Source: Candidatus Stoquefichus sp. SB1
Lineage (GTDB): Bacteria; Bacillota_I; Bacilli_A; Erysipelotrichales; Coprobacillaceae
Length of the DNA stretch: 64,000 nucleotides
Assembly (NCBI RefSeq): GCF_001244545.1
Contig: NZ_LN852695.1
Span: 248,001-312,000 of the forward strand
Direction: 5' to 3'
Positions 21,412 to 59,379 of this stretch are shown here, piece after piece. How positions within the stretch are numbered: the first letter of the stretch is position 1; each line of letters begins with the position of its first letter. Both the position numbers and the translations under genes were made by a program. The notes under the pieces were generated by a model that had not been told where the DNA came from, made no database searches, and saw only the letters and a list, made by a program, of their open reading frames with translations.

Positions 21412-21617
21412 GTTAAATCGATGCGTTGGATAAGTAAATAACATAATATGATAGAGAACTGATGGGTGGTGTAAATCAGTATAGCATGTTATTGAAATCT
21501 CCCAACAAGAGAAGCTAATCACTTCCGGCTGATCCGTTATCTCATATAAAGATATCTTTTGATATGAAATAGGGTGGCACCACGATATATTCGTCCCTTG
21601 AATGGTGTTTTTATTAT
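21412..21617 (+). promoter_or_regulatory. T-box riboswitch leader of serS
   Basis: The leader between the promoter and serS contains a GTGGTGTAA-type Stem I apical motif (near 21465-21475) and the diagnostic T-box AGGGTGGCACCACG at 21571-21584. Downstream, CACCA (21578-21582) can pair with TGGTG (21603-21607) before a T-rich stretch, giving a terminator that competes with the antiterminator (T-box with ...CGTCCCTT). T-boxes sense uncharged tRNA; placed directly before serS, this one should read tRNA-Ser. The specifier codon could not be fixed by eye. Confidence 0.9.
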
Positions 21618-27378: not shown

Positions 27379-27385
27379 AAATCTT

Positions 27386-27464
27386 GCCATTACAATAGGC
27401 GGCTTCGAACCATGTCAGGACCGGAAGGTAGCAGCATTAAGAATGTCCGTTTATGTGTAGTGGC
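27386..27464 (+). ncRNA. ffs: Signal recognition particle RNA (4.5S type)
   Basis: The conserved apical core GTCAGGACCGGAAGGTAGCAGC is present (27414-27435), including the GGAA tetraloop. Ends close in a stem GCCATTAC (27386-27393) with GTAGTGGC (27457-27464), followed by a T run that terminates it. It is a short 4.5S-type RNA without Alu domain. It binds Ffh and directs membrane proteins to the translocase. Directly upstream of tadA. Confidence 0.93.
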
Positions 27465-27486
27465 TTTTTTTCAAAGGAGTAAGAAT

Positions 27487-52692: not shown

Positions 52693-52719
52693 ATATATTG
52701 TATTATGAAAACAATATAT
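52693..52719 (+). promoter_or_regulatory. Hairpin enclosing the spoIID start codon
   Basis: ATATATTGT (52693-52701) and ACAATATAT (52711-52719) are perfect 9-bp complements; the ATG at 52705 lies in the 9-base loop. The ribosome binding site is weak. It may control translation or be a protein-binding site. Confidence 0.5.
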
Positions 52720-53610
52720 ACAAAACTTCTTTTTGTTTGTGTTTTGATATTAATGATTGGATGTTTGCATTATCAAGAAGCAATTACATATTTACAATCT
52801 CATTATCAATCACAAAACAAACAATCAGATTATACAGTGACGGTCAAAACAAAATCTAAAACACTGAAAGTTCCTCTTGAAGATTATGTTGTTGGTGTTG
52901 TTGCAGGAGAAATGCCAGTGAGTTTTGAGGTAGAAGCACTAAAAGCTCAAGTCGTGGCAGCAAGAACTTTTGTATTATCAAGGAAGCTGAAAGTTGATAA
53001 TACAACAAATTCGCAAGTTTATTTAACAGATGAACAAATGAAAAAAAATTGGGGTGACAATTATCAAAAAAATAAAGCAAAAATAGAAAAAGCTGTTAAA
53101 GAAACAAGTTATGAAGTTATGACATATCAGGGAGAATATATTTCAGCTATGTTTTTTTCAAGCAGTAATGGGAAAACTGTTAATTGCGAGGATTATTTTA
53201 CAGGTGAAGTTGCTTATTTAAAATCTGTTGATAGTCATTGGGATGTCAGTATTGATCCAACAAATGAAAGAAAAAAGACATTTACAAAACAAGAACTTGC
53301 AAAAGCATTTGGTGTAACATCACCTAATATTGAAATAACCTCATATACATCTAGTGGTTATGTTAAAAATGTCATTGTTAATGGAAAAACATATACAGGA
53401 AGAGAAGTGAGAGAAAAATTATCTTTAGCATCTTCATGTTTTCAAATTTCATTAAGCTCAAAAGGCTATACCTTTACAACCAAAGGAAGTGGACATGGTG
53501 TAGGTATGAGTCAATATGGTGCTCAGGCAATGGCTAAGGAAAATAAAAATTATAAAGATATTTTAAATCATTATTATCAAAATATTGAAATTAGAAGTAT
53601 AGAGTCTTAA
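52705..53610 (+). CDS. spoIID: Stage II sporulation protein D (lytic transglycosylase)
   Basis: 301 residues. N-terminal membrane anchor at 5-22, then the SpoIID domain: VPLEDYVVGVVAGEMPVSFEVEALKAQ and the C-terminal GSGHGVGMSQYGAQAM motif. It cleaves glycan strands during engulfment with SpoIIP and SpoIIM. Followed by the spoIIQ-like gene. Identification secure. Confidence 0.96.
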   Translation: MKTIYTKLLFVCVLILMIGCLHYQEAITYLQSHYQSQNKQSDYTVTVKTKSKTLKVPLEDYVVGVVAGEMPVSFEVEALKAQVVAARTFVLSRKLKVDNTTNSQVYLTDEQMKKNWGDNYQKNKAKIEKAVKETSYEVMTYQGEYISAMFFSSSNGKTVNCEDYFTGEVAYLKSVDSHWDVSIDPTNERKKTFTKQELAKAFGVTSPNIEITSYTSSGYVKNVIVNGKTYTGREVREKLSLASSCFQISLSSKGYTFTTKGSGHGVGMSQYGAQAMAKENKNYKDILNHYYQNIEIRSIES

Positions 53611-53641
53611 CTTTTGTTCATACTTAGATTGAGGTGAAAGT

Positions 53642-54277
53642 ATGAAAAAAAGATCTTTTAAATACAAAAAAGCCCTAGGGATTACCTTGGCTCTTGCATT
53701 ATTTTTAGGTGGTATTGGTGTTGTTCAAAAAGTTTTAGATAACCATACGAGTGATTTTGAAGATGAATCAGTTGTTAAAGTAGAAGAAAAGAAAAAAACA
53801 ACAGAAGAAACTGAAAAGAAAACAATTGAAAATTTAAAATCGCCAGTTAAAGATGGTATCGGTATTGTTAGATATTATTATAATAAAGATGATGATGCCC
53901 CAAAACAAGAACAATCACTTATCTTATTTGAAGGTGTTTATAGACCTAATCAAGGAGTTGATTATGCTAATAAAAATGAAACATTTGATGTATTAGCATC
54001 AATCAGTGGAACAGTCACTAAAAAAACAAATGATCCTGTTCTTGGATGGGTTGTAACAATTACCAATAGTGATAAAATATCAACAACTTATGAATCATTA
54101 TCTAGTGTTTCTGTTGAAATGAATAAAACAGTTAAACAAGGTGATGTAATTGGTAAAAGTGGAGAAAATGTATATGAAGCAGATTTGAAAAATCATTTAC
54201 ATTTTATTTTACAAAAAGATGATCAATTATTTAATCCAGAGAAATATATTGGTCAACCTCTCAATACAATTAAATAA
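53642..54277 (+). CDS. spoIIQ: M23-domain protein, SpoIIQ-like
   Basis: 211 residues. N-terminal membrane helix (about 13-30), then a linker and an M23/LytM domain at about 90-205. The second metal motif HLHF is kept, but the first histidine is replaced by asparagine (RPNQGVDYA), so the domain is probably not an active endopeptidase, as in Bacillus SpoIIQ. In spore formers SpoIIQ forms the forespore side of the channel with SpoIIIAH. Synteny after spoIID supports the name. GAGGTGA precedes the ATG. Confidence 0.85.
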   Translation: MKKRSFKYKKALGITLALALFLGGIGVVQKVLDNHTSDFEDESVVKVEEKKKTTEETEKKTIENLKSPVKDGIGIVRYYYNKDDDAPKQEQSLILFEGVYRPNQGVDYANKNETFDVLASISGTVTKKTNDPVLGWVVTITNSDKISTTYESLSSVSVEMNKTVKQGDVIGKSGENVYEADLKNHLHFILQKDDQLFNPEKYIGQPLNTIK

Positions 54278-54281
54278 GTGA

Positions 54282-54317
54282 TAAAATAGTGGTGATACAA
54301 ATATCATCACTATTTTA
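54282..54317 (+). terminator. Terminator-like hairpin after spoIIQ
   Basis: TAAAATAGTGGTGATA pairs with TATCATCACTATTTTA (one wobble pair), 4-base loop. The T tract is short. Confidence 0.7.
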
Positions 54318-54346
54318 CATATTTTAACAATAAGGAATTATAACAT

Positions 54347-54374
54347 TGTATTTTTTATGATGTTTTGATATACT
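54347..54374 (+). promoter_or_regulatory. Promoter of the structured leader
   Basis: TTGTAT (54347-54352), 16-base spacer, TATACT (54369-54374); transcription should start near 54381. Confidence 0.65.
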
Positions 54375-54380
54375 ATACAT

Positions 54381-54501
54381 GTACTGTATAGGTCAAGATG
54401 AGACTCTTATAAAGTTTGATTTGGCCTGTAAATAAAATTCAAATTCGTATACCTATACTATTTGGTACTAGCTATTTATTGCATAATAAGTAGCTTTTTT
54501 T
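54381..54501 (+). ncRNA. Structured leader / small RNA of unknown class
   Basis: The RNA begins GTACTGTATAGGT, whose GTATAGGT (54386-54393) pairs with ACCTATAC (54451-54458), and GTAC (54381-54384) can pair with GTAC (54465-54468), enclosing a 57-base domain. An intrinsic terminator follows: AGCTATTTATT (54470-54480) with AATAAGTAGCT (54485-54495) and seven T. This aptamer-then-terminator layout is riboswitch-like. I do not recognise the class. It precedes the large surface protein gene, 280 bases ahead. Confidence 0.6.
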
Positions 54502-54782
54502 GTGCTTTAATGCTTCTATAGACAGGTTTGTCATGCAGTTTGTTAAAGTATGCATTTATGAATTTTATTGGAGAATTTAAAAATAATGACGCAATGTTTT
54601 GCAAGATTCAACAAAATGATTAGATAATTTTGACTTATATGAGATTATGTAATTTTTTCTAATCAGAAATATTGTCTATCAGGATTTTGTAATGTGTCTT
54701 TATGACTTAAAGGGGATGATAGAACAAAGTATATTTTTAAAATAAATCTTATTGATAAGATAGAAAGGATGATTATTAAAAA
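54502..54782 (+). other. Long leader before the surface protein gene
   Basis: About 280 AT-rich bases with no open frame of note and no strong promoter recognised. AGAAAGGATG lies close to the ATG at 54783 and serves as ribosome binding site. No inverted repeats of the phase-variation kind were found. Confidence 0.5.
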
Positions 54783-57700
54783 ATGGGAAAATTAAAGAGT
54801 AAAAGAAAATGGATTAAAGTTTTAGGCTCAGTAGGTCTTTCGTTATTAATGACAATGGGAATAATGAATACAAGTGTTGTTAATGTCAATGCTTTGACTA
54901 TGACTGAAGTGTTAGTTGGAAAAAAGGTCACATTCTATGTTAATGAAAGTATTAATGTTTTTGATGCATTAAAAGCAACAGATGAAAGATTAGGACATCT
55001 GGATACAGGATGTTTTACAAATTTAACATTAAATTATTCTACGTCAGGAAGGGATTATTATAGTATATCTGGTAAGCTTGTTACAGGTATAAAATCAGGG
55101 ACTACAACGATTCTTATTTCAGGTGCTGCAAATTGTGGGCAGTATCAGATTTATGAAACCTTTCAGAACACAGCTATTACTATTGAAATAAAAAAACGTG
55201 ATGGTACAAAACCAACTGGTTTTATAGTTAATGATTCAACTAAGAATGGAAAAGAAGGAAGTATAACGGGATTAAATCCTTTAATTGTTTATGAATATAA
55301 AAATGTTGACAATATAGGCTCCTCATATATTAAAATTCCTGCTGGTACAACAAGTATAAATTTACCTAAAGGACATTATAATTTAAGAGTAGCAGAAACT
55401 GATACAACAAATGCAAGTAAGGCAGAAAGCATAACGATTAAAGAACCAGCCCAGACACCAGATATCCCAACAGTCACACAAAGAACAGATACAGCTATCA
55501 AAATTGCTGGTAAAACTGGTGAAGTATATTCAATAGATGGTGGTCAAACATGGGTTAATAATCCAGTTTTCCAAAATCTAACAGCAGATACTGAATATAC
55601 AGTTCTTGCTAAGAAATTGGGTGTTGAAAATGAATATACAACAGACAGTGAGACAAGTCGCCTCGTTGTAAAGACAAAAGCAAGTACAAATTCAGTAGCA
55701 CAGGCTATGGAACCAGAGGTTTTGTCATATAATGATACAACAATTAAGATTAAAGCCAATGCAGATGAAGAGTATTCAATTGATGGTGGTCAAACATGGA
55801 ATAAAACAGGTGAATTTAAAAATCTATCTCCAAACCAATCTTACAATGTTGTAGCAAGAAAAGCTGAAACAGATAGTGCAATGGCAGGACCAGTTTCAAA
55901 TGCAAAAACAATCAAAACGAAAATATCTTCAAATGATGTGCCTGCTCCAGTCAATACTCCAGTATTAAAAGCAACAGATCAATCAGTTGAAGTGATGAAT
56001 CCAGATTCAAAAAATGAATATTCTATTGATAATGGAAAGACATGGATAAAACCAACAGGTAATCAAGTTATCTTTACAGGTTTAGAAGAAGGAAAGAAAT
56101 ACAGCGTTTTAGCAAGAACCGCAGAAACAGATACAGCCATGCCTAGTACTGCAACAAAGGCTACTGATATTACAACTTTATGTCATTTGACAGGAAATAT
56201 ATCAGCAAAAAATTACCCAGTTTCAATGAAGATTTTAGATTCAAAAACAGGCGAAGTTATCCAAGAAATAGAAACTGATAACCAAGGAAATTATAGTACA
56301 TTACTACCTAAAGGTGATTATAAGATTGTAGCTGATTCTAATGGTGAAAGTTTAATCACTGATATTCAATTGGAACCTAATGATACTGATAAAAACTTAG
56401 TATTACAACAAGGAGCTTTGATTAGTGGAACTGTTTATGATGATGAAGGAAATCCTATTGCAAATGCAAAAGTTGTTATTGAAACGCCAAAAGGAAATAT
56501 AGAATTAACAACAGATCAACAAGGCAACTATTATACAGATGCTATTGAAGATGGTAAATATCAATCATATATTTATACAACTCAAGGAATACCTCAATCT
56601 ACAGCAACTACTGTGGAAGTAAAACAAGGACAAATGACAACTGCATCTGGAACGGAATTAAAACCAGGACTTATCACTAAAGGTGAGATAGTTGCAGATA
56701 CTAATGGAGATGGAAAGTTAGATCCAATTCAAAATGGAAAAGTTGAATTAATAGATAAAAATGGCAAGATTTTTGAAACTACAACTGATGCAAATGGTTC
56801 TTATATATTACCATCAGTTGCACCAGGAACTTATCAATTAAAAGTAACTGACTCAAAAACAGGAGCAGTTATCGAAAGAACCATTCAAATTGGTAATGAT
56901 AATTCAACAGCATTAGGAACAACTCCTGAAAAGATTGATGGAACTGTAGAAATCAATGCAGAAAAATTTATTCAAAATAATTTAACTGATGCAAATCAAA
57001 ACGTTATTACAAAGTCTACAGGTGAAAATTATAAGATAATTTTAGATGCTCAAGATGCATGGAATGAATTAACACAACAAGAAAAAGATGAAACAAATAA
57101 GATTCTCGTTAATAAATATAATGGTTTGACATATCCTGAATTATTAAAGCAAGCGGAGTCTATTCAAACACAAGTTCAAAATTTTATTAAAGATCATATG
57201 TCATTAAATGATCAAACAATAACAGAAGTCAATAAAGATACATATGCTACAATCATTTCAGCTAAAGATGCATGGGATAAATTAAGCGAAGATGAAAAAC
57301 AAGCAGCTAATGATGCATTGAAAGTAGCAGGTGCTACACAAACATATGAAGAAATGTTAGCACAAGCAGTAGCTGTTAAAGAAGTAGGTAATCAATTTAT
57401 TAAAGATCATATGACATTAAATGGTCAAACAGTAACAGAAGTCAATAAAGATACATATGCTACAATCCTTTCAGCTAAAGATGCATGGGATAAATTAAGC
57501 GAAGATGAAAAACAAGCAGCTAATGATGCACTGAAAGTAGCAGGTGCTACACAAACATATGAACAAATGTTAGCAGCAACAAAGGCAAAAGTTAATCAAT
57601 CTGCAATAGATTTTATTAATAAATATGTAAGTGATAAGAATAAAAACATTTATAAAGAAGCTAATAAATCTAATTATATGCAAATTCTATCAGGTAGTGA

Positions 57701-57923
57701 TGTATGGAGTAAGTTAAGCGAATCAGAAAAAGATGCGATTAATGCTATACTCATTCATGCTGGTAGTAAAAATTATGAAGATTTATTAAAGCAAGCTAAT
57801 GTTGTAAAAAAATCTGTTCAAACAAATGATAACACGAACATTGTACCTTTATATGCTTTATTGGCAGTATCTCTATTATTAGGAAGTTATATTATAGGAA
57901 AGAGAAAAAAAGAAAATGATTAG
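54783..57923 (+). CDS. Large secreted surface protein with repeat modules
   Basis: 1,046 residues. Signal peptide ends near NVNA (about 36). Three FN3-like segments share the motif EYSIDGGQTW or similar (residues about 240-470). Two CnaB/SdrD-like beta sandwiches follow (ISGTVYDDEGNPIANAKV and GEIVADTNGDGKLDPIQ, about 550-720). Then four 71-residue helical repeats (about 726-1010), two nearly identical at DNA level. The C-terminus has a membrane helix and KRKKEND tail, but no LPXTG. It is probably a wall adhesin or stalk protein. Lies where spoIIID sits in Bacillus, between spoIIQ and mbl. Confidence 0.9.
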   Translation: MGKLKSKRKWIKVLGSVGLSLLMTMGIMNTSVVNVNALTMTEVLVGKKVTFYVNESINVFDALKATDERLGHLDTGCFTNLTLNYSTSGRDYYSISGKLVTGIKSGTTTILISGAANCGQYQIYETFQNTAITIEIKKRDGTKPTGFIVNDSTKNGKEGSITGLNPLIVYEYKNVDNIGSSYIKIPAGTTSINLPKGHYNLRVAETDTTNASKAESITIKEPAQTPDIPTVTQRTDTAIKIAGKTGEVYSIDGGQTWVNNPVFQNLTADTEYTVLAKKLGVENEYTTDSETSRLVVKTKASTNSVAQAMEPEVLSYNDTTIKIKANADEEYSIDGGQTWNKTGEFKNLSPNQSYNVVARKAETDSAMAGPVSNAKTIKTKISSNDVPAPVNTPVLKATDQSVEVMNPDSKNEYSIDNGKTWIKPTGNQVIFTGLEEGKKYSVLARTAETDTAMPSTATKATDITTLCHLTGNISAKNYPVSMKILDSKTGEVIQEIETDNQGNYSTLLPKGDYKIVADSNGESLITDIQLEPNDTDKNLVLQQGALISGTVYDDEGNPIANAKVVIETPKGNIELTTDQQGNYYTDAIEDGKYQSYIYTTQGIPQSTATTVEVKQGQMTTASGTELKPGLITKGEIVADTNGDGKLDPIQNGKVELIDKNGKIFETTTDANGSYILPSVAPGTYQLKVTDSKTGAVIERTIQIGNDNSTALGTTPEKIDGTVEINAEKFIQNNLTDANQNVITKSTGENYKIILDAQDAWNELTQQEKDETNKILVNKYNGLTYPELLKQAESIQTQVQNFIKDHMSLNDQTITEVNKDTYATIISAKDAWDKLSEDEKQAANDALKVAGATQTYEEMLAQAVAVKEVGNQFIKDHMTLNGQTVTEVNKDTYATILSAKDAWDKLSEDEKQAANDALKVAGATQTYEQMLAATKAKVNQSAIDFINKYVSDKNKNIYKEANKSNYMQILSGSDVWSKLSESEKDAINAILIHAGSKNYEDLLKQANVVKKSVQTNDNTNIVPLYALLAVSLLLGSYIIGKRKKEND
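57170..57600 (+). repeat. 213-bp tandem repeats in the surface protein gene
   Basis: Two adjacent copies (about 57187-57399 and 57400-57575) are almost identical, with long shared stretches such as AGAAGTCAATAAAGATACAT; period 213 bases = 71 codons. Diverged copies flank them. A recent duplication that could change repeat number by recombination. Confidence 0.85.
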
Positions 57924-57931
57924 ATGAAATG

Positions 57932-57950
57932 CCAAGAGATTTTCTCTTGG
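57932..57950 (+). terminator. Hairpin after the surface protein gene
   Basis: CCAAGAGA and TCTCTTGG form an 8-bp stem with a 3-base loop; the T run is imperfect. Confidence 0.65.
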
Positions 57951-57973
57951 TATTTCTGTATAGGAAGAGAATA

Positions 57974-58165
57974 ATGAAATCGAGTGATAAAATATATTTA
58001 ATACTAAACAATGATGAAACACAATATCAAAATAAAAGACAGGAATCAATGATCTATAAGCAATTAGAAAGATTTGTTGAACAAGCTAGATATGTTGACT
58101 GCAAAGTTGCGGTTTATGAATTAAAAGAGATTGTTCCAATGAATATACTAAAAAAAAGAATATAA
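57974..58165 (+). CDS. Small hypothetical protein
   Basis: 63 residues from the ATG at 57974 (AGGAAGAGAA upstream). Starts MKSSDKIYLILNNDETQYQN and is charged, with no membrane segment or known motif. It is not SpoIIID. Lies between the surface protein gene and mbl. Function unknown. Confidence 0.55.
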   Translation: MKSSDKIYLILNNDETQYQNKRQESMIYKQLERFVEQARYVDCKVAVYELKEIVPMNILKKRI

Positions 58166-58336
58166 AAGAAGAAAAGGAATATTTTTTATTCTATTAATAA
58201 ATGAATAATCTATTTAATCTTGTTAAAAATATTGAATAAATAATAAAAAAATATAATTTAAATTAAGTGATATTATGGGTTAATTTGTGAAGGCGATAAA
58301 GGAAGAAAATATGTTGAAATAGTGATTATTTTTTTC

Positions 58337-58364
58337 TTGTATTTAATGTGAAAAATGATACAAT
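58337..58364 (+). promoter_or_regulatory. Promoter of mbl
   Basis: TTGTAT (58337-58342), 16-base spacer, TACAAT (58359-58364). Confidence 0.65.
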
Positions 58365-58389
58365 AGAAATGCTTATAGGAGGAATGTTT

Positions 58390-59379
58390 ATGAAATTATC
58401 AAAAGAAATTGGTATTGACTTAGGAACAGCTAACATTCTTATTTATGTTAAAGGTGAAGGTATTGTTGTGAATGAACCTTCAGTTGTAACTATCAATACT
58501 GAAACAAATAGACCAATCGCTGTAGGTGAAGAAGCAAGAGATATGCTTGGGAAAACGCCAGGTAAATTTCAAGCTATTCGTCCTCTTAAAGATGGTGTTA
58601 TCGCAGATTTTCAAATTACAGAAATATTATTGACTCATTTTATTAATAAATTAAACTTAAAAGGTGTATTCTCTAGACCAACAATTTTAATTTGTTGTCC
58701 ATCAAATATCACATCAATTGAAAAGAGTGCTATTCAGGATGTGGCTTTAAGATGTGGAGCAAAAAGAGTTTATATTGAAGAAGAACCTAAAGTGGCAGCT
58801 ATTGGAGCTGGTTTAGATATTTCTAAACCATCTGGTAATATGGTTGTTGATATTGGTGGGGGAACTACAGATGTAGCTGTTCTTTCATTAGGAGATATCG
58901 TTACAAGTACTTCATTAAAAGTTGCTGGAGATAGAATGGATTCTGAATTAATTAAATTTGTAAAAGATAAATACAAATTATTAATTGGTGATCGTACAGC
59001 AGAAGAAATTAAAGTGACTATTGGTACTGCTTATGGAGCTTCTGCAAATGATGTTATGGATGTAAGAGGTAGAGACTTAGTTACAGGATTACCACATACA
59101 ATCCAATTAAATGCTTTAGAAACACAAGAAGCTTTACAAGAATGTTGTACAACAATCTTAAGAGCTACAAAACAAGTATTAGAACAAACACCACCTGAAT
59201 TATCAGCTGATATTGTTAATAAAGGTGTATTCTTAACTGGAGGTGGAGCTTTGCTTCACAATTTAGATAAATATTTAGAAGAAGGTTTAGGAGTTCCTGT
59301 ATTTGTTGCTGACAATGCATTAGATTGTGTTGCTGAAGGTTGCGGAATTATGTTAGAAAACACACAATATTTAAAATAA
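58390..59379 (+). CDS. mbl: Cell-shape protein Mbl/MreB
   Basis: 329 residues from the ATG at 58390 (AGGAGG upstream). Actin-like fold: phosphate-1 IGIDLGTAN, phosphate-2 MVVDIGGGTTDVAVLS, adenosine FLTGGGALLHNL. It polymerises under the membrane to guide wall synthesis. In Bacillus mbl follows spoIIQ-spoIIID; here the spoIIID gene is replaced by unrelated genes. Confidence 0.93.
   Translation: MKLSKEIGIDLGTANILIYVKGEGIVVNEPSVVTINTETNRPIAVGEEARDMLGKTPGKFQAIRPLKDGVIADFQITEILLTHFINKLNLKGVFSRPTILICCPSNITSIEKSAIQDVALRCGAKRVYIEEEPKVAAIGAGLDISKPSGNMVVDIGGGTTDVAVLSLGDIVTSTSLKVAGDRMDSELIKFVKDKYKLLIGDRTAEEIKVTIGTAYGASANDVMDVRGRDLVTGLPHTIQLNALETQEALQECCTTILRATKQVLEQTPPELSADIVNKGVFLTGGGALLHNLDKYLEEGLGVPVFVADNALDCVAEGCGIMLENTQYLK

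Follow-up and report, generated by a model that had tools for sequence, protein, structure and literature searches.

A conserved leader module, a candidate attenuator, before surface protein and diguanylate cyclase genes of Candidatus Stoquefichus

A conserved leader module is found six times among 315 genomes of the order, in three genomes and two genera of a small group of gut bacteria. The copy described here is situated in a 64,000-nucleotide stretch of Candidatus Stoquefichus sp. SB1, the whole of which is termed the window, and precedes a gene for a surface-type protein (Table 1). On comparison of the copies, the conserved elements are a 21-base core, an intrinsic terminator and a block beyond the terminator, R3. 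The module probably decides whether the genes behind it are read. A probability of about 0.5 is given to the reading that it is an orphan attenuator of narrow distribution, which probably depends on a protein and gates read-through into c-di-GMP-linked surface genes. A first-pass annotation had described a leader of riboswitch-like layout with long-range paired ends; a conserved leader module does exist, mainly on grounds other than those given there.

Table 1. Features of the module copy in the window (window coordinates)
Feature	Position	Strand	Basis and remarks
Promoter	54346..54374	+	located by sequence; same layout in all six leaders
Leader RNA, variable 5′ part	54381..54451	+	predicted fold; local hairpin TATAGGTCAA/TTGGCCTGTA
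Conserved core CCTATACTATTTGGTACTAGC	54452..54472	+	overlaps terminator stem base; genome pattern searches
Intrinsic terminator	54470..54501	+	predicted fold and covariation
R3 block	54535..54560	+	conserved; 60–63 bases past the core in 6/6 copies
Stretch aligning with the S. massiliensis c-di-GMP-I riboswitch and second terminator	54560..54705	+	alignment
Surface-type protein gene, 1046 aa	54783..57923	+	domains SdrD_B, carboxypeptidase-regulatory-like

Copies of the module and their conserved elements

Three copies are found in the window's genome (G000), two in Candidatus Stoquefichus massiliensis AP9 (G001), the other genome of the genus, and one in a different genus of the family (G019). 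The second copy in the window's genome and the two in S. massiliensis were obtained by DNA search, and the third copy of the window's genome was added by a pattern search. The core reads CCTATACYATTNNGTACTAGC in five copies and is diverged in the sixth, that of G019 (0.60–0.62 identity to the others). A covariance model of core plus terminator, run over the 315 genomes, gives the five known copies 82–87 bits and finds the G019 copy with an E-value of 0.0037. The latter is situated between spoIIQ and a surface-type protein gene, the same place as in the window. A model of the whole leader, the building set of which includes the G019 sequence, returns the same six copies and one weak match, since dropped.

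With the core and terminator model, matches with E-values up to 1 occur in 37 of the 315 genomes. Inspection of 27 weakly matching loci showed what appear to be ordinary terminators or coding sequence, which were rejected, with the exception of L057, the G019 locus. The whole-leader model has matches up to E = 0.1 in four of the 315 genomes. Its weak match, in G070 (E = 0.053), is the one that was dropped; it stands before a gene that we take, from a reading of its sequence, to be a sugar-transport component. The core pattern with at most one mismatch is present in 2/43 family genomes. Exact cores are found at 11 loci in the genome contigs, where inspection by eye shows a terminator after the core at two S. 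massiliensis loci only, and at five loci in viral contigs, none followed by a terminator (also by eye). Apart from the two S. massiliensis loci, these occurrences are without a terminator and are attributed to chance. A DNA search of 42 genomes with the G019 leader gave no second copy distinguishable from AT-rich noise. Phage and plasmid searches for the module gave no match, and no description of the leader was found within the open-access papers and terms searched.

The annotated promoter is present in the window and consists of a −35 hexamer TTGTAT (54346–54351), a 17-base spacer and an extended −10 hexamer TATACT (54369–54374); the 17-base spacer recurs in all six leaders. The start of the leader near 54381 is inferred from the position of the −10 hexamer. 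The annotated terminator is likewise present; its hairpin (54470–54495) has an 11-bp stem with only two G-C pairs and a 4-base loop, and the T-run extends to 54501. A gap of 280 bases to the gene had been reported and is found to be 281 bases. A simple pattern scanner lists neither the promoter nor the terminator of the window, as its cut-offs are too high for these hexamers and this G-C content, and the claim therefore rests on the comparison with the five other copies. A strong terminator-like hairpin of 16 pairs at 54282–54317 (+), directly past spoIIQ, sets the leader apart from transcription of spoIIQ.

The five Stoquefichus copies are most alike in the core (mean identity 0.94), followed by the terminator (0.83–0.85), R3 (0.73) and the promoter (0.68); the stretches between these are near 0.5, with 0.52 for the 5′ part of the leader. 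In every copy the core runs into the terminator arm and leads to an intrinsic terminator. The invariance of the core extends into that arm (AGC), although two copies pair AGC weakly (A-U, G-U). The terminator stem covaries: 98.3% of its cells are paired, two pairs are changed on both sides (four cells), and the covariation score is reached by 1 in 500 shuffles. The module is shared as a unit between different genes: a stretch of 228 bases, alike at 86% identity in two places of the window's genome, precedes a surface protein gene in one and a PAS-GGDEF gene in the other. R3 is part of the DNA shared between copies that have unrelated genes behind them.

An Rfam 15 scan of the window leader yields nothing at or above the gathering threshold (best caiA, 21.7 bits against 55.5), and a scan of four module loci shows no match up to E = 0.5. 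The annotation, which recognized no known class for the leader, is supported on this point. Elsewhere in the window a T-box leader (RF00230, 109.8 bits) is found at 21412–21601 (+) and a bacterial small SRP RNA (RF00169, 57.1 bits) at 27383–27470 (+).

Genes behind the module and the riboswitch in the sister species

The 1046 aa protein displays a signal peptide and a C-terminal membrane anchor, both read from sequence. By eye, its N-terminus is closely similar to that of the surface protein at the spoIIQ locus of S. massiliensis. The G019 spoIIQ locus has a different protein behind the module, alike in the signal peptide only (37 residues, 43%). The second copy of the window's genome and the second S. 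massiliensis copy precede genes of related surface proteins (46% over 346 aa), and the former protein shares repeats with the 1046 aa protein. Behind the third copy of the window's genome is a PAS-PAS-GGDEF gene, a diguanylate cyclase. The genes behind thus differ, and the module is therefore conserved apart from its gene. A GGDEF-type open frame, identified by sequence reading, is found upstream of serC-serA near the second module copy (L005 6152–6472, −).

Thirty spoIIQ loci were compared by eye, from 30 of the 43 family genomes. The next gene is mbl in 21, the leader and a surface gene follow in 3, another gene in 3 and others in 2, and one locus meets the contig end. Since mbl is directly next in 21/30, the cassette was most simply inserted into a spoIID-spoIIQ-mbl arrangement. 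In the window the surface cassette between spoIIQ and mbl is at 52705–59379.

The orthologous leader of S. massiliensis holds an intact c-di-GMP-I riboswitch further downstream (L003 1362–1444, 48.6 bits), situated between R3 and the gene and followed by its own 9-bp terminator. The aligned stretch of the window shows no match to the family (RF01051) up to E = 10. Its identity to the sister sequence is 57% in the aptamer region, whereas the core reaches 96%; it keeps AATGACGCAA and in the alignment is without four bases of the GNRA hairpin. The riboswitch is no longer recognizable in the window, and we infer a loss on the way to the window's genome, not a gain in the sister species.

S. massiliensis has three RF01051 matches, including the one in the orthologous leader, and the window's genome has two, with scores of 48.6–66.1 bits. 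Both riboswitches of the window's genome are intact (L094 1501–1579 and L096 1501–1576) and stand before genes that, by eye, encode a secreted sensor of solute-binding type and a sensor protein in the membrane. A search for c-di-GMP-II gave 0/2 genomes, with the control also without a match.

Proposed mechanism and alternative readings

In each of the six copies a promoter, a leader and an intrinsic terminator precede a gene and are in line with it, which is the layout of an attenuator leader. A leader with read-through control and of no known class is supported because the module recurs, its terminator covaries, the genes behind it differ and Rfam gives no match. That much of the annotated riboswitch-like layout stands, while long-range paired ends are unsupported as the basis of a riboswitch.

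In the proposed mechanism, the module would act in cis and be mobile in the course of evolution. The strong promoter would give an RNA of about 100–125 bases, with termination at the hairpin as the default. In certain conditions a factor, for which an RNA-binding protein is the likeliest candidate, would act on the 21-base core where it overlaps the base of the terminator stem, and the polymerase would then continue into the gene behind, whether for a surface protein or a diguanylate cyclase. A protein is favored over a metabolite because a short sequence identity, and not a fold, is conserved. R3 is part of the module; since it is located past the terminator it could not act on termination during RNA synthesis, and its role, if any, may be as DNA or within transcripts that have passed the terminator. 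Such a transcript would, in the sister species, next meet the c-di-GMP-I riboswitch, giving two inputs in series. Counting against an attenuator are the lack of a demonstrable alternative antiterminator structure in the predicted folds, the small number of copies (six, five of them from one genus) and a terminator with so few G-C pairs.

A further-reaching form of the attenuator reading is tentative. Here the module would be a new leader class, of RNA with a protein or ligand. It would be the first of two gates on adhesion and c-di-GMP synthesis, placed in series with c-di-GMP riboswitches, and would move from gene to gene as a cassette of about 215–260 bases. If read-through control is true, three surface or signaling genes of a little-studied gut genus would be linked under one signal, beside c-di-GMP riboswitches. 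The sister species, with and without a recognizable downstream riboswitch, would offer a natural comparison of two inputs with one before the same surface gene.

It is rather unlikely that the copies are a family of small-RNA genes, in which a free RNA of 100–125 bases acts in trans via the core and the gene behind has its own promoter. The complete promoter-terminator unit and the conserved core in 6/6 copies fit such genes. However, every copy examined precedes a gene and is in line with it, R3 is part of the conserved module though it is past the terminator, and the scan shows no consistent second promoter. In three leaders no sense-strand promoter-like site was found by scan past the terminator; the window has two weak promoter-like sites there, within chance expectation. 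Were the gene's own promoter below the scan threshold, the element would be an independent small RNA.

A new riboswitch class that binds a metabolite or an ion, along the lines of the original reading, is unlikely. The terminator directly after the conserved core, the tandem arrangement with a known riboswitch in the sister, and the folding of two leaders better than shuffles, the window's (z = −3.68; one shuffle in 200 does as well) and that of the S. massiliensis orthologue (z = −3.97), are consistent with it. However, the folding of three other copies does not beat shuffles (z = +1.53, −1.34 and −0.69). Within the RNA, the terminator is the sole consensus helix that RNAalifold gives for the six leaders; a paired stretch that it shows across the promoter cannot belong to an RNA element and was rejected. 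Around the core, a 4-bp hairpin shows just one double-sided change in the six sequences.

The long-range paired ends do not hold as a conserved structure. The two words proposed to pair, GTATAGGT (54386–54393) and ACCTATAC (54451–54458), exist and are complementary, but they are not paired with each other in the predicted fold of the window, where GTATAGGT pairs with the nearby GGCCTGTA; of the long-range pairing only GTAC with GTAC is kept. Over the six leaders pairing between the 5′ end and the core is no better than in shuffles (Fisher p = 0.23; window alone, 0.028).

A leader-peptide attenuator was also considered and rejected. The window leader carries an 18-codon open reading frame starting at 54379; by eye, the frame of the S. 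massiliensis orthologue has 17 codons with different residues, and G000b and G000c are without a comparable ATG frame.

It is improbable that the module is the site of a DNA-binding regulator, with the core and R3 as operator-like repeats and a terminator that merely insulates. The fixed distance from the core end to R3 in all six copies suits an operator, and in G019 (L057 1440–1560, −) the core and R3 are inverted copies (13/15 bases, p = 0.005), unlike in Stoquefichus. However, inverted similarity over all six copies is not significant (Fisher p = 0.056), and it is G019 and G001b that account for the direct similarity (Fisher p = 0.002). The reading of R1 and R3 as copies of the core was rejected, the resemblance being weak and present in some leaders only.

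A core-R3 helix was rejected as a family-wide structure. It beats shuffles at the spoIIQ locus only (three leaders, p = 0.029, 0.010 and 0.005, of which the window and S. massiliensis are not independent, with sequence windows picked after the repeats had been seen); the other three leaders give p = 0.729, 0.477 and 0.729. The leaders' own partners have no consistent advantage over swapped ones, which often pair equally well or better, and in a wider test only G019 and, weakly, G001a stand out. The helix is at most a subtype feature.

A phase-variable DNA switch, in which a recombinase flips a terminator flanked by inverted repeats, is very improbable because the centers of the arms differ: inverted arms enclose the core and terminator in the window (22 nt, 77%; 54431–54452/54548–54569) and in S. 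massiliensis (29 nt, 76%), and the gene classes resemble phase-variable ones in C. difficile (PMC2784873, PMC9286219), but by eye the six central bases of one arm do not match those of the other at either locus, the arm search found none around the core and terminator in L005, L008 and L057 (2/5 leaders have them, G001b being outside the arm search), and the six copies share one orientation.

Comparison with known systems

In the protein-dependent antiterminators of the RAT type (LicT/BglG) a conserved RNA site overlaps the 5′ arm of a terminator, and the core of the module does likewise. Unlike in those systems, the genes behind the module are not for sugar transport. The core presumably differs from the RAT consensus, and was compared with such families through Rfam scans only.

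The module shares with the c-di-GMP-I riboswitch (RF01051) the same gene classes, the same leader in S. massiliensis and terminator-based control; however, its core is not the aptamer of that family and the window leader has no match to it. In C. difficile, c-di-GMP riboswitches stand before adhesins, according to PMC11477304. PMC11109978 names the family Erysipelotrichaceae in connection with the idnO motif.

The invertible terminator switch of cwpV in C. difficile, as presented in PMC2784873, has a promoter, a terminator in the leader, a surface protein and imperfect inverted repeats, all of which have counterparts here. The cwpV repeats are themselves imperfect, so imperfection alone is no exclusion of a phase switch. 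In contrast to cwpV, inverted repeats with a matching crossover region were not found among the five leaders tested, and the six copies carry no sign of inversion.

Tandem leaders that pair c-di-GMP-I with another class are described in PMC9481103, for example glycine/c-di-GMP-I and AdoCbl/c-di-GMP-I, and c-di-GMP-II doublets precede surface anchor genes there. The first unit of the module is of no known aptamer class, unlike in those two-input leaders, and the second is unrecognizable in the window; the module nevertheless resembles them in having two units in series, some of these leaders standing before adhesion-related genes.
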